Assembly: GCF_030817415.1 (NCBI RefSeq)
Contig: NZ_JAUSZI010000003.1
Location: forward strand, 1-64,000
Source: Streptomyces umbrinus
GTDB lineage: Bacteria; Actinomycetota; Actinomycetes; Streptomycetales; Streptomycetaceae
DNA: 64,000 bases
Direction of reading: 5' to 3'
Shown: positions 44,095-63,886 of the stretch, piece after piece
Numbering within the stretch: position 1 is the first letter of the stretch
How the letters are laid out: every line of letters begins with the position of its first letter
The notes under the pieces: model-generated
The model's input: only the letters and a program-made list of their open reading frames with translations
Told to the model about the DNA's origin: nothing
Database searches by the model: none
Translations under genes and position numbers: made by a program

Positions 44095-44182
44095 ACCCGA
44101 CCACCGACCACGACGCCCCAACCATGGTCACGATGGGGACACAGAGGGCGTGGTCGGGCCCGTGGTCGGCCCGACCACGGGC
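44095..44182. promoter_or_regulatory. CCGACCAC inverted-repeat region upstream of the replication-relaxation gene
   Basis: The block matches 1741-1839 nearly base for base in its first half. A 12-bp perfect inverted repeat with one central C lies at 44158-44182. Further copies of CCGACCAC lie at 44097-44112. Confidence 0.6.
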
Positions 44183-45758: not shown

Positions 45759-45830
45759 GATGGTGACCTCCTTTCGGTCGGTGTGCGATCTCGGTTGGCC
45801 GCTGCGAACTGCGCCGGCGCCGATAGTTCG

Positions 45831-45860
45831 ATACTAGATACAGTCTGCTGTGGTTGGCAA
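45831..45860 (-). promoter_or_regulatory. Shared-type promoter 1 (multi-HTH gene)
   Basis: On the minus strand, -35 TTGCCA (45855-45860) and -10 TAGTAT (45831-45836) are 18 bp apart, inside the conserved TATCTAGTATCGAA block. The ATG at 45758 lies about 65 bases downstream of the expected start of transcription. Confidence 0.75.
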
Positions 45861-46092
45861 GCTGCGGATCCGAGATTTTCTCCCTCTGGGAGTGTGGAAC
45901 GCGGGTGTGGGTGCTGCCTGCCCCGCCGGACACCTGCGATCCGAGCAGATCGTACGAGGTCAGGACAGGTGTACTGGGCGGGTGGTGGGTAGAACGAACC
46001 AACACGGCTTCTCCGGGGGAAGTAGTACAGGGCGGTGAGCCTGGAGCCCCGCCGACGGGCAGGGCTCCCTCGTGCAGGGGGCGGTGAGACCC

Positions 46093-46989
46093 TCAGGTCG
46101 CCGGCGGCTCGAGGTCGGGACCTTTGGGATACGGCCTTCGAGCCGGGAGGCCGAGCTTGATCTGCTCTCGCTCGCGGCGGGTGCGGCCGAGCCGGAACAC
46201 ATAGCGGTGTGCGCCGCGGTGCCGGAGGTTGCGGGCGCCGATCGCGGTCAGGGCCTCGCGCAGCCACAGGGCCGGGTCGCTGCCGGGCCGCAGCCGCGGA
46301 GCGCCGAGCGCGGTGAGCTGGGCGGCGGCGTACTCGCAGCCCTGTTCTTGGCGGCGGATCTTCTGGGCCGCGCGGTCGTGGAACACGGTGCCGTTCGGCA
46401 GCAGCTTCACCGTGCGGGCGGTTGCACGGCCGGCGTACACCGCGTTCGTCGCGGCGTAGATCGTCCCGACGTGCCCGGGCATGACCAGAGTGCCTGAGGC
46501 GGTCCGGCGCGGCACAGGGTCGGCGAACGAGACCACGCCGCGCACGCCTGCAGCGAGCAGGGCGTCGAAGCAGCGGGCGAGGAACCACGACTCGGAATTT
46601 CCGGGGCACTCATCGAGGAGAACGAACCGCAGGCACACCAAGGACTCGGCGTAGGGCCGAAGTTGCGGCAGGGGGTTCGTCAGCACGGCCTCACTGACCG
46701 GGACCCCGAACACGGCGACACCACTCAGCCGTCGCTCACCCGTGCTGGTTTCGTACAGGGCAAGTCGCTGGGTGGCCGCCGGGTAGGGGCCGGAGTAGTG
46801 GTGGGTGATCACGAATTTCTCCGCCTGCGCCTCGTCGAGCGGGGCGACTTCGTAGCGGCGGGCGTCGAAGCCGCCGTCCCGGACGTGCAGCCAGGAGTGC
46901 GTGCGTTCGCGCCACCGCTGGCACCATGGCGACGCGGTCGGTATCTCCTGCAGGTCCTCGAACGGCAGGGTCTCCTGGACCGGGAACAT
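46093..46989 (-). CDS. Mom-like DNA adenine modification protein
   Basis: The protein has 298 residues; its ATG overlaps the stop of the previous gene (TGATG). It has the GNAT-like core I associate with Mom-family proteins of actinobacterial mobile elements: FVITHHYSGPYPAATQRLALYE, LSGVAVFGVPVSEAVLTNPLP, then LVCLRFVLLDECPGNSESWFLARCFDALLAAGVRGVVSFADP. GHVGTIYAATNAVYAG and a basic C-terminus follow. Phage Mu Mom converts adenine to a methylcarbamoyl form that blocks restriction. It is the last gene of the leftward operon. The family call is from memory of the motif series. Confidence 0.75.
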   Translation of the reverse strand: MFPVQETLPFEDLQEIPTASPWCQRWRERTHSWLHVRDGGFDARRYEVAPLDEAQAEKFVITHHYSGPYPAATQRLALYETSTGERRLSGVAVFGVPVSEAVLTNPLPQLRPYAESLVCLRFVLLDECPGNSESWFLARCFDALLAAGVRGVVSFADPVPRRTASGTLVMPGHVGTIYAATNAVYAGRATARTVKLLPNGTVFHDRAAQKIRRQEQGCEYAAAQLTALGAPRLRPGSDPALWLREALTAIGARNLRHRGAHRYVFRLGRTRREREQIKLGLPARRPYPKGPDLEPPAT

Positions 46990-47506
46990 CACGGCGCATC
47001 CCCGTCCCAGCGCTCCTCTGGGCCGCTTGCGAAGAGGATGAGCTGACCCTCCGGGCCCGGAGCAGGCCCGTGTGCGGGCACGGCCCGCTGGGCGGCAGGA
47101 GGCTGCCCGGGTGGGTCCGTGCCGGCGGTCTCCTCGACGTCCGTCGGGTGGGTGCAGGGGCAGATCCACCGGCAGGGACGCTGGCCCGGTCCGTACCGGA
47201 TCACGGCGACGACGAAACCGCGCCGGTCCGTGATGGTGCCGACGGCCTCGTCGACGCGAGGGCCGTCAGCGCTGACGCACTTGTCGTGCTGACCGGTGAC
47301 GCAGGGGTGGCAGGTTCCGGCCTCGCACGAGCACCAGCGGTGGAAGCCGTGGGGGTAGGCGTCCTCGATCTTGCGCAGTGACTTCGTCCAGGCGTTCGCG
47401 GGACCCAGGCGCCTTCCTCCTCGCTCATGGGGGAGGACACAGTGGAGGGGGCGGGGTCGAGGATGCCCAGGATCGAGGCGCCCACGAAGCGCAGCCAGGT
47501 CGTCAT
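46989..47506 (-). pseudogene. Cysteine-rich DUF6248-like gene with a frameshift
   Basis: The start ATG at 47506 overlaps the stop of the previous gene (ATGA). The first frame encodes MTTWLRFVGASILGIL...MSEEEGAWV and then loses sense. From about 47400 another frame continues naturally (ANAWTKSLRKIEDAYPHGFH, WCSCEAGTCHPCVTGQHDKC, ICPCTHP) to a stop that overlaps the Mom start. One missing base after GTCCCG would restore a protein of about 172 residues. The cysteines suggest zinc binding. Either the gene is damaged or the sequence has an error here. Confidence 0.65.
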
Positions 47507-48135
47507 ACAGAGTCTCCGAACAGGGTGGGGATGGCCCGGAGTTCGTTCATCCAGGCCAGGAGGCGGGGGAGGTTGGTGTCGGGCCCGAAGGCGAGGTAGG
47601 TGCCGTCGCAGCTGGCGCAGCCGAAGGCCTGCGCGATGCGCAGCCGCCGACGGGAGTTGACACGGCCCATGTGGACGGCCAGTCCGCGCTCGCGGGCCTC
47701 AAGAGCCAGGCCGTGGGCGGCCGGGCCGGTCTTCCAGGCCGTGGTGCCAGCGAGGAACAGCACGTCGAAGGAGCCCCAGGGGATGAGACCGTGCTCGCTG
47801 CCGTCCTGGGCGGCGAAGGCGACCGGGATGCCCAGGGTGCGGATCCGCGCCAGCCACGGCACCGACTTGGCGAGGGTTGCCGCGGCGTCCATGGGGACGT
47901 CGGGGGCCACGGCCCACAGGCAGCGGTCCGGGCCGTAGCGGTCGACGGTCGCCTTCAGCCAGGCGGACCAGAGCCCGGTGCCGGGCCAGCCCTTGCCGAA
48001 CTTGCCGTTGTCGCAGGCGTACAGGGCGCCGGGCGGGATCACGTTGCCCTGGGCCGGGGTCGTCATGCAGGCCAGCAGTCCGGCCTGCATGGCAGCCCGT
48101 ACGTCAGCGCCGGACGGCGTCGCGAGGTACAGCAC
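47503..48135 (-). CDS. TGT/DpdA-like TIM-barrel enzyme
   Basis: The gene encodes 210 residues from a GTG. The sequence opens YLATPSGADVRAAMQAGLLACMTTPAQG, then APDVPMDAAATL, VAFAAQDG, FDVLFLAGTTAWKTG, HMGRVNSRRRL and CDGTYLAFGPDTNLPRLL. The series of barrel strands resembles the tRNA-guanine transglycosylase-related DpdA proteins that insert 7-deazaguanines into phage DNA. The exact subfamily is uncertain. Overlap with the next gene (ATGA) and proximity to the Mom-like gene fit a DNA-modification role. Confidence 0.55.
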   Translation of the reverse strand: MLYLATPSGADVRAAMQAGLLACMTTPAQGNVIPPGALYACDNGKFGKGWPGTGLWSAWLKATVDRYGPDRCLWAVAPDVPMDAAATLAKSVPWLARIRTLGIPVAFAAQDGSEHGLIPWGSFDVLFLAGTTAWKTGPAAHGLALEARERGLAVHMGRVNSRRRLRIAQAFGCASCDGTYLAFGPDTNLPRLLAWMNELRAIPTLFGDSV

Positions 48136-48206
48136 TGCGCGGGAGAAGGGGCGGATGAGCAGGGGATGGGTGCATGGCGGGTCGTTCCGAGTGAGGGGGC
48201 TTCGGT

Positions 48207-48746
48207 TCAGACGAGCGGGAGTTGGGCGGCCGAGCCCGCGGTCAGGGCGTGCCACTTCTGCTCGAAGTTCTTGTCCTGCTTGTTGATCACGCGGGCGGGG
48301 GCGGTGGCGAAGAGTTCCTCCGCCATCGGCCAGCCCTGTGCGCGGGGGCGGGCCCAGGCCTGGGCTCGCCCGTACACCGGGTCGTGCGCGGCGTCGACGT
48401 GGTGCCGCCCGGAGATGGAGATCAGCCGCCGGGCGAGCTGGTGTGGGCGGCCGAGGTCGATGCGCTCGGTGGAGCGCTTCACCGGGCGCCGCCTGCCGTC
48501 CTCGGACAGCAGGAACAGGCGGCGCACGTGGTAGAGCGCCCACGGCATGTCGAGCTCGCGCTCGAATGCCTCCAGGCACGCCCGGTCCCGCGGCTGGGTC
48601 GGGTCGAAGAGCTCCAGGAGGGTCTTGCGGCCGTAGGGCTTCGCGTTCGGGTTGAGGCTCATCGCCGTGTACTCCAGGCGCAGCACCTCGCCGGCGATGT
48701 CCGGGTGGGAGCGCATGCGCTCCAGGTGGGCGGGCAGCGCGCCCAT
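48207..48746 (-). CDS. Hypothetical protein, possibly 5'-truncated
   Basis: The gene encodes 179 residues from an ATG without a good ribosome binding site. The frame stays open upstream, but there it runs into the divergent SUKH gene region. Visible features are helical (HLERMRSHPDIAGEVLRLEYTAMSLNPNAKPYGRKTLLELFDP) with a basic middle. No known family is recognised. The insertion of the SUKH gene next to it may have removed its natural start. Confidence 0.5.
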   Translation of the reverse strand: MGALPAHLERMRSHPDIAGEVLRLEYTAMSLNPNAKPYGRKTLLELFDPTQPRDRACLEAFERELDMPWALYHVRRLFLLSEDGRRRPVKRSTERIDLGRPHQLARRLISISGRHHVDAAHDPVYGRAQAWARPRAQGWPMAEELFATAPARVINKQDKNFEQKWHALTAGSAAQLPLV

Positions 48747-48882
48747 GGAGGCGGGGAAGCGACAAGTTATTGAGAATTGAGGCAGGGGTGTGACCTTTCT
48801 GGGGGGCAGGAAGATGCCAAGTGGCAGGTGGTAGTGCTGCAGCGCGCGGGGCGTTGTCACAGCGAGGTGGTATCCATGCCGC

Positions 48883-49443
48883 ATGAATATTGATCAAGCC
48901 GACCCTGCTGAGCTGGCGGTACTTCGTGCGGCTTTCGACGTCGATGACGGAGGCGGGTCGGCTCTTGGCTGGGAGGCAGTCCATGCCTTCGAGGCAGAAC
49001 ACGGGATCGTGCTGCCCGAGCCGTATCGGACCTTCGTCGCGGAGATAACGGACGGTTCGTACTCCGGGCCGCCCGAGTACGGACTGCTGTCGGTGGCGGA
49101 AATGCCAGACGACTGGGGCGATGACGAGCAGGAACGCGACCTGAGCAAGCCGTTCCCGCTGGCGGAGACATGGATGTGGGAGGAAGACCCGGAGCAGTCC
49201 GAGGATGCCGACGAACTCCTTGAACAGGTCTACAACCACGGCTCGGTCGTGCTCGGCACCGACGGGTGCGCGATGAACTGGCATCTCATCGTCACGGGAA
49301 CTCACCGAGGGCACGTCTGGCTGATCAGCGACGTCGGTGCTGTCCCCTTCGGTGAGCAGTTCGGGTTCACCACTGCTGAGCCTGGCTTTGCTGGCTGGGT
49401 CCGCCATTGGGCGGCGAAGAAGCCCTGGTATGACGCTGCGTGA
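48883..49443 (+). CDS. SMI1/KNR4 (SUKH) family protein
   Basis: The protein has 186 residues from the ATG at 48883. The SUKH signature is clear: IVLPEPYRTFVAEITDGSYSG, then PPEYGLLSVAEM, PFPLAETWMWEED and a C-terminal FGFTTAEPGFAGWVRHW. SUKH proteins are often immunity proteins against polymorphic toxins. It is the only plus-strand gene in a long leftward block and has its own leader, so it looks like an inserted cargo gene. No toxin gene lies beside it. Confidence 0.85.
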   Translation: MNIDQADPAELAVLRAAFDVDDGGGSALGWEAVHAFEAEHGIVLPEPYRTFVAEITDGSYSGPPEYGLLSVAEMPDDWGDDEQERDLSKPFPLAETWMWEEDPEQSEDADELLEQVYNHGSVVLGTDGCAMNWHLIVTGTHRGHVWLISDVGAVPFGEQFGFTTAEPGFAGWVRHWAAKKPWYDAA

Positions 49444-49491
49444 CTCTTCAGGAGTGCGGCCTGTGGTGGTCCTCTCCAGTTCCGATCGACT

Positions 49492-50157
49492 TCATGAGCT
49501 CAGTGAGAGGGACGAAGCTGTCGGTCGTCCCCAGTTCCCTGAGCGTGGGGCCCGCTGGGGTGGGGTGTCCGCGAGGCGTTCGGCGAGTGAGGAGACTGCT
49601 TCGCGGTCTCCTTCGAGGGCTTCGCGCTCGTCATCTGTGAGGTCGAGTTGTTCGAGCATCTGGTCGATGCCGTCCTTAACGGCCAGGAGCTGGCCGCGGG
49701 TGGACTGTTTGGGGACGTAGAACGGACAGCGGGCGCAGGCCAGCCGGTGGGGGCACTTGGCGAAGAAGTCGTAGCTGCAGTAGCCCTCGCCCAGGTCGTA
49801 GTACTTCCAGGGCTGTTCGCCGCCTGCGGCGGCTCCGGTGAGGATGGATTCGCGGTCGATGAGGACCTGGATGGTACGGACGTTGCGGGCGAAGTAGTCG
49901 GCCTTCCTGTAAGCGGCGGTGAGGGTGCGCTGCAGGATCGCCGCGTAGTAGCGGGTGCTTGCCGGGTGCTTGTGACCAAGCCATTGCTGCAGGTCATTGA
50001 GAGTCAACGGCTCGCGGGCGTTGAGGAGTTGGGTGGCGATGGTGGCTCGCGCCCGGTGACTGGTCAGCGCACCGCGGGAGTCGGTCTGCGGGACGCCGGA
50101 CTTGCGGCAGAGGGCGGGGAGGATGTTGTGGTTGAGGTAGTCCTTGCCGACGAGCTG
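49492..50157 (-). pseudogene. C-terminal fragment of a tyrosine recombinase
   Basis: About 220 codons encode the catalytic end of a tyrosine-type integrase: SHRARATIATQLL (HxxR box), LQQWLGHKHPASTRYYA (second His and the nucleophile Tyr), then a cysteine cluster (CPHRLACARCPFY) that may bind zinc. The N-terminal DNA-binding part and the first Arg are missing. Similarity starts abruptly at about 50157, where the sequence switches to a PAPS-reductase-like gene. Confidence 0.8.
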
Positions 50158-50558
50158 GCCACCTGGGGCACCGTGCCGACGGACTCCTGGTCGTCCCACA
50201 GCGTCCACGGCCCACGCGCGAAGAGCTGTTCGGGGCGGCGGGAGTCGTCCAGGACGGCGAATCCGTCGGCCTGGAGGTGCCCGTTGCGCGCCAGCTGGAC
50301 GAAGCGCACGCCGTTCTCGCGCAGCAGCGGGAGCATGAACTCGTCGACCAGGAGCCGGGTTTCAGGCCACTCGCTGCCGGTGGCCATGTAGAGGACGACG
50401 GTGCGGTCCAGGTCGATCCCGTGGGCGGCAGGGTCGGTGAGCATCCGCGCGATGTAGGCGGTGGAGTCTGCTCCCAGACCCCAGTTGATGACGGTGTCCA
50501 GGTCGTCGTCGGTGGTGAAGCCGAGCAGGGACGGCGTGTACGCGGCAGCAGTGGGCAC
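50157..50558 (-). pseudogene. PAPS-reductase-like gene, 3'-truncated
   Basis: About 134 codons from a GTG match the adenine-nucleotide alpha-hydrolase fold: TVINWGLGADSTAYIARML holds the PP-loop, followed by VVLYMATGSEWPETRLLVDEF and FVQLARNGHLQADGFAVLDD. After VGTVPQVA the frame enters recombinase DNA and ends at 50064 with a low-complexity tail. Such proteins activate sulfur groups; in DNA phosphorothioation systems they are the DndC/SspD-type component. A DUF4007 gene is in the same operon. The product probably lacks its catalytic C-terminus. Confidence 0.7.
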
Positions 50559-50567
50559 GGCGCGGCC

Positions 50568-50780
50568 TCACTTCTCGCCCGGACGGACCGCGGCCGCGAC
50601 GAGCACCCTGCCGTGAACGGGGCGCGGGGTCCAGGGCCCGGTGCGGGCGGCGGACGGGGCGGGGACATAGCCGTCGAACGCGCGGTGGTCGGTCGCCGGA
50701 TCCCCCAGTAGCCCGGCGACATCGGCGTGGTGGGGGCTGACGGGGAGGACCGACGGGAGGAAGTCGGCAGGGTGTTTCAT
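50568..50780 (-). CDS. Small hypothetical protein
   Basis: The gene encodes 70 residues from an ATG behind GGAGAAG. It is rich in Pro, Ala and His (MKHPADFLPSVLPVSPHHAD) with no recognisable fold. It lies nine bases before the PAPS-reductase-like gene and is probably cotranslated with it. Confidence 0.45.
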   Translation of the reverse strand: MKHPADFLPSVLPVSPHHADVAGLLGDPATDHRAFDGYVPAPSAARTGPWTPRPVHGRVLVAAAVRPGEK

Positions 50781-50898
50781 GGGGATCTTCTCCAAGAGCC
50801 GTGGCCGGGCGTGGTCACGGGAACGGCGGCGTGTAGCGGTGGGACCTGTGGGTGGGGACCGAGGCGCGACCAATGGAACTGAGGCTCCGCGCTTCGGC

Positions 50899-51780: not shown

Positions 51781-51890
51781 GTGACGCCTCCGAAAGAACG
51801 TGCAGAAGGAACAGGGCCTGGGGCGATGTGGTGGCAGCGGGCGCACCATCCGGGGGCGGTGAGAGGCGAGGTGGTGATGCGCGCCCGCGG

Positions 51891-52232
51891 TCAGGCCGGC
51901 GGGGACTGCTGGCGCGCGAACCCGGCGGCCTCGGCGGCCAGGTCGTCGGAGAGGTAGGCGACGGACAAGCGGCCGGACAACGAGGTCATCGCGCGCTGGA
52001 CGCAGTGCTGTTCGGCGTCGGAGGACGTACCGGCGGGTACTCGGTGCACCTCGAGGTCCTCGTCGTAGACGAATCCGGCCTGTTCCAGCAGGAGGACGGT
52101 GACGCCGTCGACGTGGCCGTCGGCCAGGACGCCGTGGACGGGATGCCTGCCGATGATCAGATCTGGGCAGAACACGGTGGTGCCGTCGAGGACTTCCGGG
52201 ACGTCAGCCCGGGCGCTGGGGCGGTCGATCAT
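51891..52232 (-). CDS. Hypothetical protein
   Basis: The gene encodes 113 residues; the ATG follows ACGGAGCACC. The sequence reads as a small alpha/beta domain (LIIGRHPVHGVLADGHVDGVTVLLLEQAGFVYDED) with a C-terminal helix. No motif is recognised. It is in the same operon and direction as its neighbours. Confidence 0.5.
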   Translation of the reverse strand: MIDRPSARADVPEVLDGTTVFCPDLIIGRHPVHGVLADGHVDGVTVLLLEQAGFVYDEDLEVHRVPAGTSSDAEQHCVQRAMTSLSGRLSVAYLSDDLAAEAAGFARQQSPPA

Positions 52233-52348
52233 GATGGTGCTCCGTGAGGCGGCCGCGAGAAGCGACCACGCAGAGTCGATCCGAGATAAAGATGCTGTGG
52301 CGGGGAACCGTGATGTCCAGCGCGCTGCCGGTGGTGTGGCGGGTCAGG

Positions 52349-53401: not shown

Positions 53402-53432
53402 CGAAGTCTCCTGGGGGAAGGGGGAGTGGCAG

Positions 53433-54014: not shown

Positions 54015-54116
54015 GAGATGCCCTCCAACAGGGCCGTGAGGGTGGTTCGATGTGGGGCGGCGACCAGGTCCGGGACGCCGGGGGAGTGCGGGGTGACGGT
54101 GCACGAGGGGTCAGCT

Positions 54117-54389: not shown

Positions 54390-54393
54390 GGCG

Positions 54394-54699: not shown

Positions 54700-54716
54700 G
54701 TCGTATTCCGGGGTGT

Positions 54717-55658
54717 TCAGGCGGCAGGGGCCGGCGGATCCGGCTGGGGCGCGGAGTCGAAGGCGCGCAACTGCTTACCGCGGTTCGAGACGAGCTCGGC
54801 GAGCGTGATGGGCTGGTCGTGGAGGTCGAGTGCGGCCATGCCCGCAGCGCGGGCGGTGACGATCTCCGACCAGAGCTCGCGCAGGCTGTCGACCGTGGCG
54901 TCCGGGTCGCGGGCGCGCTCGATGAAAGACCGCTGGGGCCAGTTGGGGACACCGTCGTCGGCCCAGGCGAGGATGGTGCGGCCGAGGTCCTCGCCGGGCT
55001 GTTCGATGACCTCTCCGGCCAGTGCGGGGATACGGCTCTTGCCGAAGTACACGGTGGCGACCGGGCCGAGGGTGCCCACCGCGTCGAAGTCGTACTCGAT
55101 GTCGGCTCGTTGCTCGGGCCGGACGCTGATCCGGCGGGCGTACTGGCGGCCGCGGGTGTCGGTTTCGATGACGGTGTCGGTCCGGGCCTTGAGGGTGACG
55201 ATGACGTGCCCGGGGTAGGCGGCCAGGGCCTCGGTGACGGCGCGGTCCTCCGGCCGGTACTTCGACCATCCGGCGCTGTTGCCGCCGTATCCGGCCCGGG
55301 CTTCGCCGTTGACCTTGTCGAGCATGCCGCCCTCGCCGCTCCAGAAGGCGCTGTAGGTGTCGACGATCAGCACGGGGTAGCCGCGCATGGCGGCGCGGGC
55401 GAGGGCCGCGAACAGTGACCTGGGGTCGTAGCGGGTGAACTCCTGGGTGTGGAAGGGCACACGGTCGGCGTACTTGGCTGCCATCCCGCGTTCGGTGTCG
55501 ATGAGCGCGACCTGTTCGCCGAGCTCGGCGGCGACCAGCAGGGAGGTCAGGGTGCGGCCGGACCCGGACGGGCCTTCGAAGGCCAGGCGGACCGGTCGGG
55601 ATTCCTTGACCGCAGGCCGGAATTCCGGCATCGGGGTCAGGGAGCTGCCACTGGACAC
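54717..55658 (-). CDS. RecA-like AAA ATPase (Sak4-like) with altered Walker A
   Basis: The protein has 313 residues from a GTG behind GGAG. Residues about 20-240 form a RecA-type core: Walker A GPSGSGRT (29-36), VALIDTERG, and Walker B YPVLIVDTYSAFW. It resembles Sak4-like phage ATPases that help annealing recombination together with SSB, and an SSB gene lies 18 bp upstream. Position 35 of the P-loop is Arg instead of the usual Lys, which may weaken or change ATP use. Confidence 0.75.
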   Translation of the reverse strand: MSSGSSLTPMPEFRPAVKESRPVRLAFEGPSGSGRTLTSLLVAAELGEQVALIDTERGMAAKYADRVPFHTQEFTRYDPRSLFAALARAAMRGYPVLIVDTYSAFWSGEGGMLDKVNGEARAGYGGNSAGWSKYRPEDRAVTEALAAYPGHVIVTLKARTDTVIETDTRGRQYARRISVRPEQRADIEYDFDAVGTLGPVATVYFGKSRIPALAGEVIEQPGEDLGRTILAWADDGVPNWPQRSFIERARDPDATVDSLRELWSEIVTARAAGMAALDLHDQPITLAELVSNRGKQLRAFDSAPQPDPPAPAA

Positions 55659-55676
55659 AGGGGATCTCCAGGGACG

Positions 55677-56168
55677 TCAGCGGATGCGGGCCCAGCCGCC
55701 GTGGCGCTGGGGGCGGGACCGTCGCTCGTGTCCCGGCGCACCCTGGGTTGCGGCAGGTGCTGCCTGGGGCGGTGCGGGCGCGGCGGGTCGGGCCAGCGTG
55801 GTCGGGAGGGTGCTGTCGGTGTAGGCGATGCGGTGACGCAGGCTCAGCCCGACGTCATCGGCGTCGAGATCGAACACGGTGCGCTTGATGCCTTCGCGGT
55901 CGGTGTAGGTGCGCTGGCGCAGGCGGCCCTGGACGATGACGTGCATGCCGCGCTGGAGGCACTCGCAGACGTGCTCGGCGACGTGCCGCCACACCGTGCA
56001 GGTGATGAACAGTGATTCGCCGTCGGTCCACTGGCCTGTGTTGCGGTCGTAGACCCGTGGCGTTGATGCGACCCGGAAGCGGGCGACGGGCGTGCCCTTT
56101 TCAGTGAACCGGATTTCGGGGTCGGCGACCAGGTTTCCGGTGACGGTGACGATGGTCTCGCCGGTCAT
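55677..56168 (-). CDS. ssb: Single-stranded DNA-binding protein, plasmid type
   Basis: The protein has 163 residues. A standard OB-fold SSB domain occupies about 1-110 ([29 protein letters not shown], then [35 protein letters not shown]). The tail is Ala/Pro/Arg-rich and ends GGWARIR. It lacks the acidic tip (DDIPF type) that host SSB uses to recruit repair proteins. It probably coats transferred or replicating element DNA and works with the Sak4-like ATPase. Confidence 0.9.
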
Positions 56169-56176
56169 GACGGCCC

Positions 56177-56251
56177 TCAGCTCCGGAAGTGGCGGCGGGC
56201 GCCGTCCTGCGTGGACCCACTGGCGGAGGGGACGGGGTCGGGTGTGGGCAC
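56177..56251 (-). CDS. 24-residue ORF in the ssb leader
   Basis: A GTG behind CAGGAGTG opens a 24-codon frame whose stop lies eight bases before the ssb start. It is the first frame after shared-type promoter 2. It may be a leader peptide that couples ribosome loading to ssb. Confidence 0.4.
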
Positions 56252-56312
56252 GGGGTCACTCCTGTCTCGTGTGGTTCGGCGCAGGGAGGGTGTCAATCTC
56301 CCTGTAGTTTCG

Positions 56313-56341
56313 ATACTAGATACTAAATGGGTGAGATGCAA
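56313..56341 (-). promoter_or_regulatory. Shared-type promoter 2 (ssb operon)
   Basis: On the minus strand, TTGCAT (56336-56341) and TAGTAT (56313-56318) are 17 bp apart. The sequence around the -10 is TATCTAGTATCGAA. It is expected to drive the long leftward operon from ssb toward the Mom-like gene. Between it and the next gene (56342-56513) I see nothing else. Confidence 0.8.
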
Positions 56342-56513
56342 GCGGATCACATCCCGCCCAGGTGACGATTTCTACAGGTCAAAGCGAGGCACTGTCGTGC
56401 TGGCCCGGAGGCCGCTCGGCGCGCACCGGCGCCGGCTGCTTGCCCGCCCCGTCGGCCGGGGCGGCCCTTGAAGGACCGCACATCCCGGACCGGCGGCAGT
56501 CGGGTCTGTCCTC

Positions 56514-58637
56514 TCAGCAGTTGAGCCGCTGTTTCTCCGCGTTCAGCAGCTCGATCACCGGGCGGAGCCAAGCACCCTCCGCGTCGTAGGGCGTACGTCC
56601 CTGGGACATGGCCTCGATGGCGTCGGCCTGCGCCGCGTAGGGTCCGCCGAGAGCCCGCAGGTCGGAAATGACCCTCGGCATGTGGGTACTCAGGGGCTTC
56701 CTCCACGGGCGGTTGGCCGGACTGGCGCCCTTCCGGACGTTGTAGAGGGGGCCTTCGACGGCGATGTGTCCGAGGTAGAGCACCGGTGCGTGGATGCCGA
56801 GGAGTTCGGCCAGTGCCACCGCCTTGCGGTAGTCCGGGATGCAGGTGAACCCGTACATGCGGCGGTACCCGGCCGGGTTCGGGTTCACGATCACCCGCCA
56901 CTGGGACGTGGTCCAGGCGACGGTGGACACAGCTCTCCCGGCGGTGCGGAGGCCGCGTTCCTCAAGGACGGCAGTCATCCGCTGCTCGGAGAGTTCGGCC
57001 AGCAGACGGCGCGGCTCGGGGGCGGCTTCCAGGCGCTTGACCTTGCGGATCTGCGTGATGGGCGGCTGCGCTTGGCGAAGACCGTGCAGATCCGAAACGT
57101 CGGCCAGGTAGGCGCCGGACGGCAGCGAGACGTGCTGCCACGCCTCGGCGTCGAGGAGCGGGAAGCGGTGCGGCTCGGAAGTCATGAGCAGCCGCAGGAG
57201 GCTGCCGCCCATGGTGTCCATGGCCAGCTCGAACCCCTCGCTGCGGTCGGATGAACTGAGGTTCCCCTCCCTGGCCGCCCGCCGGTGCCCGCCTTCGTGG
57301 AACACCACGCGCAACGTTTCATCCAGGTCATCCAGGGTGCTCTCCTTGATGCCCAGCACGTCGGTGGCGGCCTGGTAGATGCCGCTGGAGCAGTAGAGCG
57401 CCGAAGCCTCGTCCTCCCGGTAGACCCTGACCTTTCCGAGTGAGTCCAGGCCGAAGACGCTGCGGAAGACCGCACAGGCCAGGTCCAGCGTGCGGCGCCG
57501 CTCGGCGCAGACGTCGCCGTGCTTCACCCACTGGGTCTTGGGGTACTGGCGCTGATGGTGCTCCACGGCCTCCCGTACGGGCCTGATGCCGAGCAGGCGC
57601 ATCAGAGCGCCGTGCATGTGACGGTTCAGCCTGCTGGTGACGCACGTGACGCCTCGGCCTTGCAGGTGAAGTTCGTCCTCGACCACGGTGCCCGCAGCAT
57701 TGTGGTAGACCTCGTCGTCGTTCCACAGGGTCTGGGCGTGATCGCGGAAGGCGCGGCGGACGGCGAAGTCGGTGACCGAGTCGAAGTAGGTCTCGGCGGC
57801 TGACAGGCGCGGGCCGTTCAACGCGCGGTCGACGAACCGTGCGATGACGGCGGGGTCGGTGCTGGCTGCGAGAGCACTGCGGATGTGGGTCTCCAGTGCG
57901 GCTCCGTCGACGATCGTGCGGTCACGGTTCTGTTCGCCCTTGGCCGTGGCCAGGGGGAGGTCGTAGCTGGCGGCAAGCCGGGTGTCGGTGGAGACGAGGA
58001 TGCCGCCGACGAAGATTCGTCCCGGCTGACCGTCCAGAATGATCTCTGCGTGGTCCTGCGGGGGCCGGTAGGCGGGGTTGCTGAGGTAGCGGACCCGGCT
58101 GATGGCTTCTTCGGCAACCTTCCGCGAGCAGAGGACGCTGATGAGAGTGCCGTGCTGCCGGTTGGTGGACCAGTACTCGTAGTGCAGAACCAGGCTCTGA
58201 TGGCTTTCGTCAAGGCCGGGGACGTCGGTGAGGTACGTGCTCGGTTTCAGGACGGGCGTGAAGCTGTAGCCGACGGTGTCGAACTGGACCGTTCCGATCT
58301 GCGGGTCGCGGGCGAGGACGAGCGCTGCGAGCTTCTTGCCTTCCCCGAACTGGCCGATCTGCTGGCTGGTCTTCCGGGAGGCGCCCAGGAGCAGTCCGGT
58401 GCGGGGGATGCCGGGCCCCTGGTCGTGGATGGCCAGAACCCCGTCGCTCCAGGCCACTTCGGTGTCCGGGTCTTCGTCCAGCGCGTTGGCGATCAGCTCC
58501 ACGAGGGCGCGCTCGGACGTCCAGTCCTTCACGTAGTCCTCGGCGATGGGGTAGGGCAGTTCTCTGACCTGCTCGGGACGAGGTTGAACAGTGGTCTGCC
58601 GCCGGTCGGTAGCGGGCGCGCATGCAGAGGTGGGCAT
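56514..58637 (-). CDS. GHKL ATPase fused to a domain with an HEGGH zinc-peptidase-like motif
   Basis: The protein has 707 residues; the ATG at 58637 follows GAGGAA. An N-terminal GHKL ATPase (about 25-220) has the N box ELIANALDE (48-56), G1 DQGPGIP and G2 GQFGEGKK (95-102), as in MORC/Hsp90/MutL-type proteins. A helical middle follows. At 447-451 the sequence VVFHEGGHRRA fits HExxH, with acidic SEGFELAMD 15-20 residues later that could supply the third zinc ligand. The C-terminus is an unrecognised 200-residue domain. An ATP-gated peptidase or DNA-clamp role is conceivable but unproven. Confidence 0.7.
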   Translation of the reverse strand: MPTSACAPATDRRQTTVQPRPEQVRELPYPIAEDYVKDWTSERALVELIANALDEDPDTEVAWSDGVLAIHDQGPGIPRTGLLLGASRKTSQQIGQFGEGKKLAALVLARDPQIGTVQFDTVGYSFTPVLKPSTYLTDVPGLDESHQSLVLHYEYWSTNRQHGTLISVLCSRKVAEEAISRVRYLSNPAYRPPQDHAEIILDGQPGRIFVGGILVSTDTRLAASYDLPLATAKGEQNRDRTIVDGAALETHIRSALAASTDPAVIARFVDRALNGPRLSAAETYFDSVTDFAVRRAFRDHAQTLWNDDEVYHNAAGTVVEDELHLQGRGVTCVTSRLNRHMHGALMRLLGIRPVREAVEHHQRQYPKTQWVKHGDVCAERRRTLDLACAVFRSVFGLDSLGKVRVYREDEASALYCSSGIYQAATDVLGIKESTLDDLDETLRVVFHEGGHRRAAREGNLSSSDRSEGFELAMDTMGGSLLRLLMTSEPHRFPLLDAEAWQHVSLPSGAYLADVSDLHGLRQAQPPITQIRKVKRLEAAPEPRRLLAELSEQRMTAVLEERGLRTAGRAVSTVAWTTSQWRVIVNPNPAGYRRMYGFTCIPDYRKAVALAELLGIHAPVLYLGHIAVEGPLYNVRKGASPANRPWRKPLSTHMPRVISDLRALGGPYAAQADAIEAMSQGRTPYDAEGAWLRPVIELLNAEKQRLNC

Positions 58638-58850
58638 GACGAATTCCTCGGGCTGGGCGAGTGATCCCGGGGCGCCCGATGGCGCGGCCCTTCCCGAAGA
58701 GAGGTGGGTGAGGGCCGCGTCTGTTGAGGGCACTGCCGGACGGGATGTGTGTTTGCGTAGCGGCTCGGCGGTGGGCTGCCGGTATGCGGCCGTCGTTCGG
58801 CGCATCGGTGCTGCCCCGCGGGAGGGGCACCCGTCCAAGCTGTTACTTCG

Positions 58851-58880
58851 ATACTAGATAAAATCAGCCCGGAATTGCAA
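58851..58880 (-). promoter_or_regulatory. Shared-type promoter 3 (GHKL gene)
   Basis: On the minus strand, TTGCAA (58875-58880) and TAGTAT (58851-58856) are 18 bp apart within the same conserved block. The leader of about 200 bases contains a GC-rich hairpin (GGTGCCCC...GGGGCAGCACC). No other gene is seen in 58638-58999. Confidence 0.78.
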
Positions 58881-58999
58881 GAGGATTCGGGGCCGCATCC
58901 CCTACCGCGGCTACGATCCGGTGCAGGTCAGGGCCTCGGTGGCGGCGCGTATCGGCACGTCATGGCCCCTCTCGGGATGCCCGTGAACTGCCGTACAAC

Positions 59000-59236
59000 T
59001 CACTGGACTTGCGGGCCCGCCGGCGGGTGGAGTTCCATGCCGGGCTGCAGGTGCCGCACCTGATCTGCACTGCCGTCGACGTCGACATGCAGTTCGGAAA
59101 ACCACTGGGACAGCACGGCGACAACCTCGCCGCCGTTCCAGTCGCCGCTGCTCTCCTCGATGTCCTTGATCCGGCTGAACAGATCGGCGATCGCGGCCCC
59201 TTCTTGTGTGGCCTGATCGAATGAGGGTGAGGGCAT
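59000..59236 (-). CDS. Small hypothetical protein
   Basis: The gene encodes 78 acidic, largely helical residues (ATQEGAAIADLFSRIKDIEESSGDWNGGEVVAVLSQWFSELHVD). It starts two bases after the stop of the methylase-like gene, so the two are cotranslated. It could be a subunit or modulator of that protein. No family is recognised. Confidence 0.5.
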   Translation of the reverse strand: MPSPSFDQATQEGAAIADLFSRIKDIEESSGDWNGGEVVAVLSQWFSELHVDVDGSADQVRHLQPGMELHPPAGPQVQ

Positions 59237-59238
59237 GG

Positions 59239-60291
59239 TCAGGATGCCTTTGCTGGGCCGGGGCCGCGCGAGATCAGATCCTCCACCTCGGCGACGGCCT
59301 CGTAGGTGGCGGCGATCGTCTGGGCGCGCCCGATGAGCTCGTTGCGGCGGGCGAAGACGGCGGTGCGCTCCGCGAGGGCCCGTTCGGTGCCGTCGCCTTC
59401 ATGCAGAGTGTCGGTACAGGAGATCAGGACACGGCGACCGAGATCCCACACCACCGCATTGACGGCGCAGCAGGCCGAGGAGATGGGGTCGAGATCGTTC
59501 ATGGCCCACACGTAGGCGCGCGGATCGCGGCCGGTCTCACGCAGGTACTGGGCGGCAGCTCGAACGAGACCGCCGGTGCCGGCCGTCGGTTCACCCAGCC
59601 ACGCCCCCTCGGGGAGATCCTCCACGGACAACGTCATGCGCACCATCAGGTCACACATGTCCGGCGGAGTATGGACCTGGCCAAGCGCCTCCCGCGCGCC
59701 ACGGGAGCGCAATTCGGTGACGAGGAAGCCGAGCACGTCGGCCTCCGATCGCCAGGACGGGTCCGCATCTGCGGTCAGCTCCAGCAATCCGGTCTCCAGC
59801 GCGGCACGGGTGACCGCGTGGACGGCAGCGAGCCGCTTCGCGCTCTGCTCCTCCTCGTCGAGCCACCCTCGCAGCGGATGCGCCCACTCGACCAGCTCCG
59901 GACGACTGATCCACAAGAGACCCCACACGCGCCGGTAGTGGTCGAGCAACTCCTGCGGGCCGAAGGTCAGGAGGTGTCCCGTGAGATCCGGACCGTCGTC
60001 CGTCTGGCGCAGCAGGGAGAGGACGGCGACGACGCCGACCGGTACCTCCATGAGGGAGTCGATTCGGTTGCGGTGCCAGGTGGGGGCCACCTTCTCTGCC
60101 ACGTCCAGGGCGAGATGCGTCGGCGACAGGCCGCGCGTCCGGGTGCGCTTACGGCGGGCCGCAGTGAGCGCCGGAGTAACTGCCGCACGTTCCGGGCGCG
60201 GGGGAGCGGTGTCGGCTGAGCTCAGGTGGATCCGCGGCTGGCTGGGATCGGGCTCGGGCGGCTCATCGGGGGCGAACAGGTCGAGTTGCAT
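59239..60291 (-). CDS. N-6 adenine DNA methylase-like protein without motif IV
   Basis: The protein has 350 residues; the ATG follows GAGGAGTAAC. A basic N-terminus and a helical region (about 70-200) precede the methylase core with SAM-binding motif I GEPTAGTGGLVRAAAQYL (about 233-250) and MNDLDPIS. The catalytic (N/D)PP(Y/F) motif, expected soon after, is absent; the protein continues with LGRRVLISCTDTL and ends in a helical tail. It may bind SAM or DNA without methylating, or be part of a split enzyme. Confidence 0.75.
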   Translation of the reverse strand: MQLDLFAPDEPPEPDPSQPRIHLSSADTAPPRPERAAVTPALTAARRKRTRTRGLSPTHLALDVAEKVAPTWHRNRIDSLMEVPVGVVAVLSLLRQTDDGPDLTGHLLTFGPQELLDHYRRVWGLLWISRPELVEWAHPLRGWLDEEEQSAKRLAAVHAVTRAALETGLLELTADADPSWRSEADVLGFLVTELRSRGAREALGQVHTPPDMCDLMVRMTLSVEDLPEGAWLGEPTAGTGGLVRAAAQYLRETGRDPRAYVWAMNDLDPISSACCAVNAVVWDLGRRVLISCTDTLHEGDGTERALAERTAVFARRNELIGRAQTIAATYEAVAEVEDLISRGPGPAKAS

Positions 60292-60529
60292 GGGTTACTC
60301 CTCGGGCATGCAGGCAGGAGGTCGCGACGGCGCGGGGGCGGGTGAGCAACGCCGGTTCGCGGGGGAGGCAGAGACAGCAGGACGCGGGACCAGGCGGGCG
60401 GTAGCAGGAAGGGGAGGCCGGCCTCCTGGGGGAGAGGGGCCTGCGGTCAGGTGCCACGGGCGCCGGGGCGTCGCAGCACTGCGGCCTGCTCCGGCGGCCG
60501 CCCGGGCGTCTGCGTGCACGGGCGGGTCG

Positions 60530-60640
60530 TGCAGCCAGGTCGACGGCCTGGTCCTCGTCGGCGGTCCGGGGCAGGTACGTGGCGACGGTGAGTTCCCCCA
60601 CGCGACAGGCGGAGGGCTACCGCATGTCGGGCGAGGCCGC
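60530..60640. pseudogene. Rearranged fragment of the ParB-like 3' end
   Basis: On the minus strand, 60535-60600 matches the last 25 codons of the ParB-like gene (ELTVATYLPRTADEDQAVDLAA against ELAVTKYLPQPDDEDQAADLAA). The adjacent GGCGGAGGGCTACCG (60609-60623) also occurs in that gene, but in the opposite orientation. The piece is a duplicated and partly inverted remnant. The rest of 60292-60675 holds no gene. Confidence 0.65.
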
Positions 60641-60675
60641 GGCGCGGTCCTGTGCCGGCTGGAGGCGGGGCGGGC

Positions 60676-61299
60676 TCATCCGTCGCCCTCCAGGTCGAGC
60701 GCACTGCGCAGCAGCTCAAGCAACTGCGCCGCGTCCTCTGGCAGGGCGGCCTCGCGCAGGAGGCGCTTGCGCCGGATCGGGACACCGAGGCTGATGCCCG
60801 CTGGCACACCAGGAGCGTCCGGTTGCGCGACGAGGCGGTAGTCGGCGGTGGAGATCATCCAGGCCTCGTACCGGTCGGCGGTACTGCCGCTGCGGGAGGC
60901 ATGGCCTTGGTCAGGGTCGCGTGACGGGCAGGGGCACGATGGATCGGTGCAGGGTCTTCCAGCGGGGTGGTTGGCCAGTACCGGAGCTCGGCGGTAGTGC
61001 GTTGCAGTGCCGTTGAGCATCGGGCAGTGCGCGGCCGCGTAGGGCAGGCACTCCGGGTGCAGGGCGGGTTCGGGCGAGTAGCCGCGGGCGTGGTCGGCCG
61101 GACGGACGATGAGGAAACACCGCTCGTCCAACTCCTGGCCGCAGATCTGGCACAGGCGGTCGCGGTAGGCCCGGAACGCGCGCGCGGCGTCGAGGCTCCC
61201 GAAAGCGGCATGGCCGTTGTGGATCAGGGAGCCCCAGGGCACTACGAGCCCGCCGGCCAGCGGGCGGTGTGCACACCGCTGGGGTATCGCGGGATTCAT
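60676..61299 (-). CDS. Cysteine-rich hypothetical protein of actinobacterial plasmids
   Basis: The protein has 207 residues. Its start MNPAIPQRCAHRPLAGGLVVPW and the LCQICGQELDERCFLIVRPAD segment are familiar from Streptomyces plasmid and phage genomes, where relatives are often labelled OmpA-like without basis. Cysteine pairs near residues 50-53, 84-92 and 117-123 (CPCPS) point to zinc binding. The C-terminus is a helical Leu/Arg-rich segment. It is probably nucleic-acid associated; the function is unknown. Confidence 0.6.
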   Translation of the reverse strand: MNPAIPQRCAHRPLAGGLVVPWGSLIHNGHAAFGSLDAARAFRAYRDRLCQICGQELDERCFLIVRPADHARGYSPEPALHPECLPYAAAHCPMLNGTATHYRRAPVLANHPAGRPCTDPSCPCPSRDPDQGHASRSGSTADRYEAWMISTADYRLVAQPDAPGVPAGISLGVPIRRKRLLREAALPEDAAQLLELLRSALDLEGDG

Positions 61300-61418
61300 G
61301 GAGAGGTCGATCTTTCACAGGTTGATCGGCCTCGGCCGGGCACGGGGCGTACTCGGCCGAGGCACAGGGTGAGGGGTTGGGGGGCCGGTCAGGCGCTGGG
61401 TGCGTCTGTGACCGGCGC

Positions 61419-61655
61419 TCAGGGACGGGCACTGTCCCCCGAATCGCGCTGCGGCGGCCGTCCTTTCGTCCGCGCGCGTCTGCGTCGGCGTGGGCGGTGG
61501 TTGCGCTCAGGCGTGAGATGCCAGCCGTCGCAGATCCCGCATTTGCGGTACCCACGCGTCGACTTGCCGCGGGCACGGGTGGCTCCGAAGGCTGCGCGAG
61601 CGGCCGCGCGGTCGGGGTAGCGCCGTCGTCCCGACGGACAGATGTCGTCGGACAC
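61419..61655 (-). CDS. Small basic zinc-finger-like protein
   Basis: The gene encodes 78 residues from a GTG behind AAGGAG. It has DICPSGRRRYPDRAAARAAF, then YRKCGICDGWHLTPE, a knuckle like those of small phage-type DNA-binding proteins, and a very basic tail (RPRRRRRARTKGRP). It probably binds nucleic acid. It is in the leftward operon between the ParB-like and OmpA-labelled-type genes. Confidence 0.6.
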   Translation of the reverse strand: MSDDICPSGRRRYPDRAAARAAFGATRARGKSTRGYRKCGICDGWHLTPERNHRPRRRRRARTKGRPPQRDSGDSARP

Positions 61656-61733
61656 GACGTACTCCTTGGCTGTGAGGGGAGGCGAGCGGGCCGGGCGCAG
61701 CACTGCTGCTCGGAGTGCTGCGCCCGGCAGGGC

Positions 61734-63308
61734 TCAGGCGGCCAGGTCGGCGGCCTGGTCCTCGTCGTCGGGCTGGGGCAGGTACTTGGTGACGGCGAGT
61801 TCCTCCACGTCGGACAGCCGGTAGCCCTCCGCCTTCAGGCACAGCAGGTAGGCGGCCTGGTGGCGGCTGAGGCCCTGCCACGTCTTCGGTTCGCGCATGC
61901 TGTACTCGAACGCGGCGGCCACCTGCGCGAACACCTGGTGCCATCCCTTGGTCTTGCCCTGGCGGGTGACCAGGTCGTCGAACGGACCTCCCTCATGGCT
62001 GTACCGGGACCGGTCGGCGTTGGGGTCCGGGACCCCGAGGAGCTGGGCGACGGCCTCGGTCTCGCCCTTCTCGCACCACTTCGCGAACAGGTAGGGCGGG
62101 CTCATCACCGTGCGCAGGGCGAACTGCCGCACGGGCTCGGGCAGGGACTTGCCCTTGCACAGCCGCCTCACGAAGTCCTTGCGGACCGTCCGCGCGGTCT
62201 TCCACGCCTTGTTGCCCGCGATGGTCCGCGCCCGCGCCTCCTTCTCCTCCTCGCTCATGGACTGCTTGGCCTGCTTGGCCTGCTTGGCTCCGGGACGCAG
62301 CTTGTGGCCGTACTTGGCCGGGTCGGAGCAGTACCAGACGGGCTGGAACTCCTCATCCAGGCGGGCGACATGACCGGAGCAGTAGGCGTGCTTGTCCGCC
62401 GTGAGCGGCGCGCCCAGGGGCGTGCGCAGCTCGGTCAGCGGCCGGGAGGTGTCCTTCGTGCCGTACGGGAAGTAGTCGGGCAGCAGCGGGACATCGGCCT
62501 TTTCCAGTGCCTCCAGTGCCGTCTGCCGGGCTTCGGCGTCGGCCTTGGCCTGCCGGAGCCGAGCCAGGGCCTGGTCCCAGTGACCGCGCCCGCCGCCTTC
62601 CTCGGCAGCATCCTTGGCGTGAGCGTCCTCCAGCACCTGAACGGCCCGGGAGACGTCGCTGACTTCGGCCATTTCGGCCATCTGCATCAGATCGAAACCC
62701 TGGACGCTTGCCCGGTGGAGCTGGGCGTCGTCCAGGCGGGCCGCCTCGCGCGCCGCACGCAGCTCGGCCCGCTTGATCTTCAGGGCGCGGGCCATCGTCT
62801 CGCGCTGCTCCTCGCTCACATCGATCAGCGCCAGCGTCTCGATGGCCTTGACCCGGTCGCGGTCGTGCATCTGCTCGCGGTGATCGTTCTCGATCAGCGA
62901 CAGCAGGTGCGTCATCGCGTCGTTGCCCACCAGGTCGGCCCGGACGATCGTGGGGATCTTGCGTGCGGGCCTGCCCTCGGCCTCGGCCGTGGCATTGGCG
63001 GCCTGCTGGGCCTGTGCGCGCCGCCATCCCTTGAACGCGCCGTACGTTCCGTTTTCCAGCGGTCGGACGTGGATGGGGTCCTGTACGCCGAGTTCGCCCA
63101 CCGACGCCTTGAGGTCGTCGTCCGGTTCGGTGTCCGTGGTCCGGGCGTTGTAGTCGTCGCGCACGATCAGGGCAGGGTCGAGGCGGACGATCTGGTCGTG
63201 GGCTTCTTCGACGGCCGACGGCTCCGGCCGCGCGGTCTTCGGGGTCGCGGCAGAGGCGGCTTTGGCGGGGGTCGTCGTGGTCTTCTTCGCCTGGGAGGCG
63301 CTGGACAT
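61734..63308 (-). CDS. ParB-like partition/nuclease-domain protein
   Basis: The protein has 524 residues; the ATG follows CAGGAG. An N-terminal disordered Ala/Thr/Lys tail leads into a ParB/sulfiredoxin-type domain (about 40-135): IVRLDPALIVRDDYNARTT, LKASVGELGVQDPIHVRPL, then GAFKGWRRAQAQQA and a MTHLLSLIENDHRE helix. A helical region (about 140-260) and a long C-terminal part with cysteines (AYCSGHVARL, WYCSD) follow. No ParA gene is in view. The role is probably DNA binding in partition or regulation of the element. Confidence 0.8.
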   Translation of the reverse strand: MSSASQAKKTTTTPAKAASAATPKTARPEPSAVEEAHDQIVRLDPALIVRDDYNARTTDTEPDDDLKASVGELGVQDPIHVRPLENGTYGAFKGWRRAQAQQAANATAEAEGRPARKIPTIVRADLVGNDAMTHLLSLIENDHREQMHDRDRVKAIETLALIDVSEEQRETMARALKIKRAELRAAREAARLDDAQLHRASVQGFDLMQMAEMAEVSDVSRAVQVLEDAHAKDAAEEGGGRGHWDQALARLRQAKADAEARQTALEALEKADVPLLPDYFPYGTKDTSRPLTELRTPLGAPLTADKHAYCSGHVARLDEEFQPVWYCSDPAKYGHKLRPGAKQAKQAKQSMSEEEKEARARTIAGNKAWKTARTVRKDFVRRLCKGKSLPEPVRQFALRTVMSPPYLFAKWCEKGETEAVAQLLGVPDPNADRSRYSHEGGPFDDLVTRQGKTKGWHQVFAQVAAAFEYSMREPKTWQGLSRHQAAYLLCLKAEGYRLSDVEELAVTKYLPQPDDEDQAADLAA

Positions 63309-63373
63309 GGCGGTACTCCTGTGCTGGTGGTGCTTGGCGGGCCGGGTATGCCCCGGCCCGTCCGGTCGGCCGG

Positions 63374-63688
63374 TCAGGCCGTGGGGCGGTCGTCGACTGT
63401 GACGACCATGCGGATGACGCGTCCGCTGGCGTCGCTCTCGGTCGGGGAGAGCAGCAGCCCAAGGACGGCGCGTACGAGCGAGCACGTGGTCTCGGACGGC
63501 TGGTGGTGACCGGTCTGCTCGGCAGCGGTGCGGATCAGCTCGTTGGTGGCGTCGGCGGGTGTGTAGGCAAGCCCACGGCGCAGCAGGTGATCGGCGAGCC
63601 GGAGCGCCTTCATCGCGCGTCGGGTGGCGCGATAGCGGGCCTGGGGCCAGCCGGTGGGAAAGGGAGTGGGGTCTTCGGCACGCGACAT
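63374..63688 (-). CDS. Small hypothetical protein
   Basis: The gene encodes 104 residues; the ATG follows GAGGAACG. It is mainly helical (YRATRRAMKALRLADHLLRRG, then ATNELIRTAAEQTG) with a short C-terminal strand (RVIRMVVTVDD). It is the first protein gene after the tRNA-like gene and shared-type promoter 4. No family is recognised. Confidence 0.55.
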   Translation of the reverse strand: MSRAEDPTPFPTGWPQARYRATRRAMKALRLADHLLRRGLAYTPADATNELIRTAAEQTGHHQPSETTCSLVRAVLGLLLSPTESDASGRVIRMVVTVDDRPTA

Positions 63689-63740
63689 GGCGGTGCGTTC
63701 CTCTCGGACAGGGATGGTGGTCAGCGTGTGTGGAGCTGGC

Positions 63741-63812
63741 TGGTGCCTGCGAGGGGATTTGAACCCCTGTCCACCCGCAAGTGGGGCCGCTCTACCGCTG
63801 AGCTACGCAGGC
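63741..63812 (-). tRNA. tRNA-like gene with an atypical anticodon arm
   Basis: A perfect 7-bp acceptor stem (GCCTGCG with CGCAGGC), D arm GCTC-AGCGGTA-GAGC, T arm AGGGG-TTCAAAT-CCCCT and an encoded CCA end are all present. Only 20 bases, not the usual 23, lie between the D and T stems. The anticodon arm folds as CCAC/GTGG around a six-base loop TTGCGG, so identity cannot be assigned. It lies 40 bases downstream of shared-type promoter 4. Confidence 0.75.
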
Positions 63813-63857
63813 TTGGGCCGCCGGTGCGACGGCGGGACAACGCCAGCGTCTTATTCG

Positions 63858-63886
63858 ATACTAGATAATAAATGCCCTGAATGCAA
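63858..63886 (-). promoter_or_regulatory. Shared-type promoter 4 (tRNA-like and parB-like operon)
   Basis: On the minus strand, TTGCAT (63881-63886) and TAGTAT (63858-63863) are 17 bp apart, in the TATCTAGTATCGAA block. The predicted transcript begins near 63850 and reads through the tRNA-like gene into the leftward genes. Right of it, to the window end, I see no gene. Confidence 0.8.

Follow-up and report, generated by a model that had tools for sequence, protein, structure and literature searches.

The 14-base block TATCTAGTATCGAA recurs upstream of eight units in one arm of C3, probably a linear plasmid contig of 73 kb in Streptomyces umbrinus, and by analogy with better-studied plasmids we read it, at a probability of roughly 0.6, as the core of a shared promoter that would co-express the genes by which a conjugative Streptomyces plasmid establishes itself (leading-region genes). 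The block is conserved in related elements, is replaced by other blocks in other plasmid lineages, and in several units is followed by an RNA leader with a covarying stem. The genes behind it are probably switched on together when the plasmid arrives in a new cell.

The window, i.e., the whole stretch of 64,000 bases analyzed, comprises the first 64,000 bases of the 73,162-base contig C3, for which gene starts are our own predictions. Its minus strand holds exactly four exact copies of the block, at positions 45827 to 45840 (site S8), 56309 to 56322 (S7), 58847 to 58860 (S6), and 63854 to 63867 (S5), each heading a leftward unit as the original prediction had it. These units are, respectively, the HTH gene (44754 to 45758), ssb, the open reading frame (ORF) at 56514 to 58838, and a unit of tRNA-Lys, a small ORF, and a ParB-like gene. 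The remaining 9,162 bases of C3 hold four extra copies, at 65954 (one mismatch), 69340, 70687, and 72166, and all eight copies lie on the same strand in the right 27 kb of the contig. The predicted regulon with a shared promoter is borne out by the block being kept at orthologous positions in six other elements, but its supposed element-wide reach is not, since the restriction of the C3 set to the right 27 kb makes it arm-wide. Across the 12.4-Mb genome, seven exact copies and one 1-mismatch copy were found, with no block at ≤1 mismatch outside C3 and a single 2-mismatch place on another contig, while the Markov expectation for the exact 14-mer was 0.0004 in 12.4 Mb. At ≤3 mismatches, dinucleotide shuffles of the window (n = 100) averaged 0.23 matches, with 5 or more in none of them. 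In addition, a diverged block, TATCTCGGATCGAC (3 mismatches; 52275 to 52288, minus strand), lies upstream of the ORF at 51891 to 52232; this site is identical at 14/14 bases in C3, Streptomyces sp. NBC_00989, and G260 and was not found at ≤1 mismatch in G369 and G087. Start-associated sequences and stoperators of mycobacteriophages are likewise short asymmetric elements that stand in one orientation before many genes; the blocks, here in plasmids, are likened to them by description, as one-orientation repeats before genes.

The block overlaps the −10 element of a promoter of the form TTG-17/18-TAGTAT. As predicted, the four window sites (from 45.83 to 63.86 kb) have a hexamer starting with TTGC at 18, 17, 18, and 17 bases ahead of TAGTAT, and all four, by reading the sequence, show the vegetative sigma-70/HrdB pattern (TTGnnn, 16 to 18 bases, TAnnnT); a stricter consensus scan (9/12 letters) lists just the first of them. 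The four constrained bases on either side of the −10 hexamer exceed the needs of a vegetative promoter. The block may also be read as two imperfect heptamers, TATCTAG and TATCGAA, a shape that would suit proteins with tandem binding domains.

The block is present, rather than absent, in related elements. A 13-mer search of 392 genomes of the genus, including that of S. umbrinus itself, gave a match in 8, whereas the reversed control pattern gave none over the same 392 genomes. Among the seven other matching genomes, five carried 4 to 6 copies starting 0.7 to 1.3 kb from a contig end, and the remaining two (G002 and G014) carried single stray copies. In Streptomyces sp. NBC_00989, all eight blocks are found at orthologous places on the linear plasmid NZ_CP108729. 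A further search of genome contigs returned 10 loci, 6 of them from Streptomyces (5 strains); the other 4, unrelated single matches, were taken as chance, as was one match in viral contigs (L011), on a contig of visibly lower G+C. A phage origin of the region was also considered and rejected, as phage records matched window positions 42001 to 64000 solely within ssb. The resulting type I set comprises 42 sites in eight orthologous classes (S1 to S8) from seven elements, including C3; it was gathered at ≤2 mismatches and leaves out the single 13-mers of G002 and G014 (no leader), the 3-mismatch site, and an extra mid-plasmid copy at 126877 in NBC_00989. Over 107 pairs within classes, pairwise identity was 99.8% in the block, a value biased somewhat upward by the mismatch limit at which the sites were gathered, against 54 to 63% in the flanks and 75% in the −35 zone. 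The exact block occurs in 34 of the 42 sites; the seven S4 sites all start with AATC, and a single change is seen in one S5 site. Classes S2, S3, S4, and S8 are present in 7/7 elements, S8 with the exact block throughout. Blocks S5, S6, and S7 of the window are all present in NBC_00989, and S5 is also found in G369 and, with one mismatch, in G260. Class S7 has some drop-outs: the ssb genes of G259 and G369 (two of the five type I elements with ssb) have no block upstream, and the ssb block of G260 is truncated by the contig edge. A regulon that shares one promoter signature is thus strongly supported by these sequence comparisons.

Eleven further Streptomyces linear plasmids with related genes each carry their own repeated block before the units of the arm, of the CACTATTATT type in seven, TATTATGGAAC in three, and TATTATTGATT in one, with no opposite-strand copies in the first 26 kb of any of them. 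Whole-record searches of 12 plasmids found the type I pattern in 1, type II in 6 (S. chartreusis gave no match by the stricter type II pattern), and type III in 3, with no mixing. Block types I to IV have in common a TAkTAT-like hexamer, mostly followed by one base and then GA; no such family emerged when the repeat counter was run five times over four control stretches. The usual gene order in the 11 plasmids is a DUF932 gene some 2 kb from the end, then ParB-like, ssb, and an S8-like gene, where DUF932 is the annotation of the records (Pfam gives no confirmation for the NBC_00989 protein). In 8 of the 10 Streptomyces records found, the DUF932-annotated gene lies 1.5 to 2.3 kb from the record end and points inward. 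NBC_01431 gave neither a DUF932 nor an ssb match, and the fetched S. chartreusis region held no ParB-like, ssb, or S8 gene, its S8-like gene lying far inside the plasmid. Among other plasmid records, the nearest DUF932 relative (68.6%) is on the circular plasmid NZ_CP108490 of NBC_01244, which has a fifth block, TAGTnAATGTCG, in 16 copies on one strand and none on the opposite strand. This block and a repeated leader precede both DUF932 (2 mismatches there) and ssb, and DUF932, ArdA, and SSB are encoded in one cluster on the same strand as the blocks; ArdA (anti-restriction) was seen in this circular relative only. This layout thus does not depend on a telomere.

The same repetition could arise if constitutive vegetative promoters were spread by copying and their modules homogenized by recombination within each plasmid, with no dedicated regulator, an explanation that we regard as unlikely even though several observations suit it. 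TTG-17/18-TAGTAT matches the ordinary sigma consensus, the circular plasmid repeats a much longer promoter-plus-leader module almost unchanged, and the extra copy at 126877 in NBC_00989 is a captured S1 promoter with leader and first codons. Copying would, however, homogenize longer tracts, and the uniformity of type I is confined to 14 bases while spacers and flanks vary among sites and among orthologues, which counts against it; so does the better conservation of the block letters outside the −10 hexamer than of the −35 zone.

The arm genes listed here, all on the minus strand, fit the establishment reading. Behind S7 lie ssb (55677 to 56168; Pfam SSB) and, adjoining it downstream, an AAA_24 ATPase gene (54717 to 55658). 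With ssb, the controlled genes include one for single-stranded-DNA handling, and the C3 arm also has a methylase-like gene. The latter, at 59239 to 60291, encodes an N6-methyltransferase-like protein (20.8 bits, cutoff 20.4), and a Mom-like DNA-modification protein is encoded at 46093 to 47169, likewise within the arm. The longest frame of the S6 gene (56514 to 58838) corresponds to phrog_6077; its orthologue in NBC_00989 has a sub-threshold HATPase match and a start ∼225 bases past the first base of its block. The S5 unit contains the ParB-like gene (61734 to 63308) and tRNA-Lys(CTT) (63741 to 63812), the latter 41 bases behind the block. That the tRNAs of the arm serve its rare codons was considered and rejected, as the 6406 codons of the predicted arm genes include no TTA and 3 ATA. 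In NBC_00989, conjugation genes lie no more than 10 kb from the arm. A sub-threshold Sigma70_r4_2 match was seen inside a transposase of C3.

Early gene control after entry has been worked out in circular plasmids of Gram-negative bacteria and in Bacillus, as described in two accounts (PMC11541004, PMC8708921); among publications on Streptomyces linear plasmids and leading regions, judged by their titles, we found none describing it. In the Bacillus plasmid p576, an autoregulated repressor holds several establishment promoters, which entry into a naive cell releases; the EGeRS2 operators consist of paired TTATCCC heptamers immediately before the −35 element, and the regulator, Reg, is a ribbon-helix-helix protein (PMC8708921). 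The likenesses are threefold: several operons of one plasmid share a common short promoter sequence, one operon encodes a regulator that binds DNA and is itself preceded by that sequence (a role for which S8 is the candidate here), and sister plasmids serve the same purpose with another sequence (PMC8708921). Operons sharing a conserved upstream sequence, the mark of an EGeRS-type system, are found here in 8 units of C3 and at 42 sites in seven elements. Unlike in p576, the block overlaps the −10 element, the candidate regulator has tandem winged helices, the plasmids are mostly linear, the set begins close to a telomere, and a structured leader is present in several units (PMC8708921). The EGeRS2 dual heptamer, TTATCCCnnTTATCCC, had no exact match in any of 76 loci and none in the window at ≤3 mismatches; the arm would thus work like the p576 system without being a member of it. 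Gene content resembles that of the leading-region anti-defense islands, with SSB, a methyltransferase-like protein, and, in the circular relative, ArdA encoded on one strand (PMC11541004). From this gene content together with a regulatory logic like that of p576, we infer both the leading-region identity of the arm and the timing of its expression.

Under the establishment reading, RNA polymerase with the vegetative sigma factor would recognize TTG-17/18-TAGTAT, and the invariant letters around the −10 hexamer would form the putative site at which a regulator encoded by the plasmid, probably a repressor, binds. This repressor would keep the block promoters down in an established host and would be lacking in a newly entered cell, allowing a burst of SSB, ParB-like protein, DUF932-annotated protein, modification genes, and tRNAs until it accumulates. 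The candidate repressor would be the tandem winged-helix protein S8, encoded at 44754 to 45758 (minus strand), whose true start may be Met-43 (45632); repression, and S8 as the regulator, are the least certain parts of the proposal. S8 has three tandem MerR/excisionase-like winged helices. In a structural model these are MerR/BldC/TraN-like, giving S8 the winged-helix DNA-binding fold of MerR/BldC/excisionase proteins, with module one nearest to MerR-type folds; its sequence found nothing useful in the PDB. TraN of pIP501 is likewise a MerR/excisionase-like winged-helix protein, a repressor whose binding sites lie upstream of both the conjugation promoter and its own (PMC10877727). The S8 gene stands at the distal end of the arm behind its own exact block in 7/7 type I elements, and homologues occur in all seven of these and in 10 of the 11 regions fetched from other linear plasmids. 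In the S8 and SSB trees, block types I, II (with IV where present), and III each form a single clade, whereas in the ParB tree neither type II nor type III does so; the agreement between block type and S8 could, however, reflect just the joint inheritance of whole arms. NBC_00212 and NBC_01431 have near-identical S8 proteins over the shared part and blocks that share only a 9-base core, and in types II to IV the S8 promoter is a weak block variant or differs from the block. The circular plasmid that bears the fifth block gave no S8 homologue at E 1e-5, and S8 therefore cannot be a universal regulator. We propose S8 only tentatively as regulator of the establishment regulon in linear plasmids, and the dedicated regulator or operator suggested in the original prediction is likewise putative.

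A plasmid-specific sigma factor or an activator, rather than a repressor, might instead read the block, and we think this improbable. MerR-type proteins often activate, which suits the fold of module one. At site S4, which lies outside the window, TTG is missing from the −35 position in 7/7 elements, yet only the first letter of the block differs. Against this, 40 scanned frames of C3 contained no sigma-factor domain above the Pfam cutoff, and bases of the −35 region are kept, with T at −19 in 34 of the 42 sites and G at −17 in 30 of the 42 (block start, 0). Single-stranded-DNA promoters of the Frpo/ssi kind, which work on entering DNA only for as long as it stays single stranded and are common in leading regions whose gene content the arm resembles, are very hard to credit here, as the eight C3 promoter regions (one strand, 70 bases each) fold much as shuffles do (z, −0.41 to 0.97), no hairpin pairing −35 with −10 was found in any of the eight, and the promoters, unlike the Frpo systems described there, look like ordinary double-stranded ones (PMC11541004).

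In the establishment regulon as we read it, the structured leader of several transcripts would provide a second shared control after transcription starts. In classes S1 to S4, a hairpin with a GUGRCG loop lies between the block and the start codon. Alignment A2 covered 25 of the 27 S1 to S4 sites, excluding the S4 leaders of NBC_00989 and G260, which lack this loop; in these 25 leaders, 92.0% of 175 cells were paired, versus 60.2% when shuffled and ≤53% with the partner slid. Double changes occurred at all seven pairs, with 62 double-change cells versus 22.9 in shuffles, a count reached by 0 of 500 shuffles, and RNAalifold unaided gave the same helix. No Rfam match for the leader was found, with only tRNAs above the cutoff in C3 60 to 73 kb (L010) and in L012. 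A covariance-model search of 22 sources (592,971 bases) gave 45 rows at E up to 1. Rows 1 to 28 were all type I leaders (the 25 that built the model and 3 others), and 6 of the next 8 (E, 0.0015 to 0.1) lay just behind the different blocks of other plasmids, namely, NBC_00015 (one), S. anthocyanicus (two), NBC_01766 (two), and NBC_00723 (one); of the other two, one followed the truncated G260 ssb block and the second was off target, and the last 9 (E, 0.14 to 0.99) lay away from blocks. The leader, an RNA element without an Rfam counterpart, thus recurs in weaker form in plasmids whose promoters differ. Folding also indicated a hairpin in the leader of the ssb unit of the window (56282 to 56304, minus strand; stem CAGGGAG/CTCCCTG), which the covariance model missed.

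The right end of C3 has many short palindromes with GNA loops, and we take it to resemble a Streptomyces telomere; transcription from all eight copies is directed inward, away from it. The left end has no telomere look in its first 60 bases and has a TcpC-like conjugation gene inside its first 1.6 kb, and the contig may therefore be incomplete. A more speculative combination, doubtful as a whole, would join telomere-first entry, an establishment arm anchored at the telomere, a promoter password specific to each lineage, a regulator at the far end acting as timer, and a leader that gates translation. The regulator gene, at the arm end that enters last, would then be a built-in timer, the leader with its UGRC-type loop, found in several plasmid lineages, would gate translation during entry, and the passwords would diverge among lineages like immunity among phages. 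If the establishment reading is right, the blocks would flag which unknown genes belong to establishment or anti-defense, and the end-first entry of linear plasmids would become directly testable. Just past the distal end of the arm, at 43116 to 44111 on the minus strand, lies a gene for a replication-relaxation family protein, and such a gene also stands behind S8 in 6 of the 11 regions fetched from other plasmids.

The right 27 kb of the plasmid contig C3, here termed the arm, encodes tRNA-Ile(TAT) and tRNA-Leu(TAA) at C3 positions 67772 to 67847 and 68216 to 68290, respectively (L010, the 60- to 73-kb part of C3: 7772 to 7847 and 8216 to 8290), as well as tRNA-Lys(CTT) at window positions 63741 to 63812. 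The anticodon of tRNA-Leu(TAA) is that of bldA. Among the six other type I elements, which share the 14-base block, tRNA-Ile(TAT) was detected in all except G087 (5/6), and tRNA-Leu(TAA) was detected in three, while the predicted arm genes contained no TTA and three ATA codons (n=6406 codons). These tRNAs may act as substitutes for host tRNAs that a defence has struck. In the left part of the window, genes for nSTAND-WD40 (12882 to 16568), NB-ARC-TPR (32069 to 34063), caspase-like (36846 to 37973), and protein-kinase (39632 to 41119) proteins are possibly defence genes. Within the ssb unit, a short frame of 24 codons (56177 to 56251), located between the ssb leader and ssb and conserved in NBC_00989, G260, and G369, could encode a leader peptide.

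The circular, 187.5-kb plasmid NZ_CP108490 carries 16 copies of a promoter-leader module, all on one strand and spanning 12.7 to 76.3 kb of the record, with the ssb promoter being one of them and ArdA encoded in the same region. In the linear plasmid NZ_CP108729 of NBC_00989, the S1 promoter recurs mid-plasmid (126877) together with its leader and the initial codons, and this copy heads another cluster, as if left over from fusion with an older plasmid end. Moreover, the type II pattern, a different repeated block, also matched NZ_CP108236 of NBC_00080 at 544768 and 553966, near the right end and directed inward; this plasmid may have two such arms.
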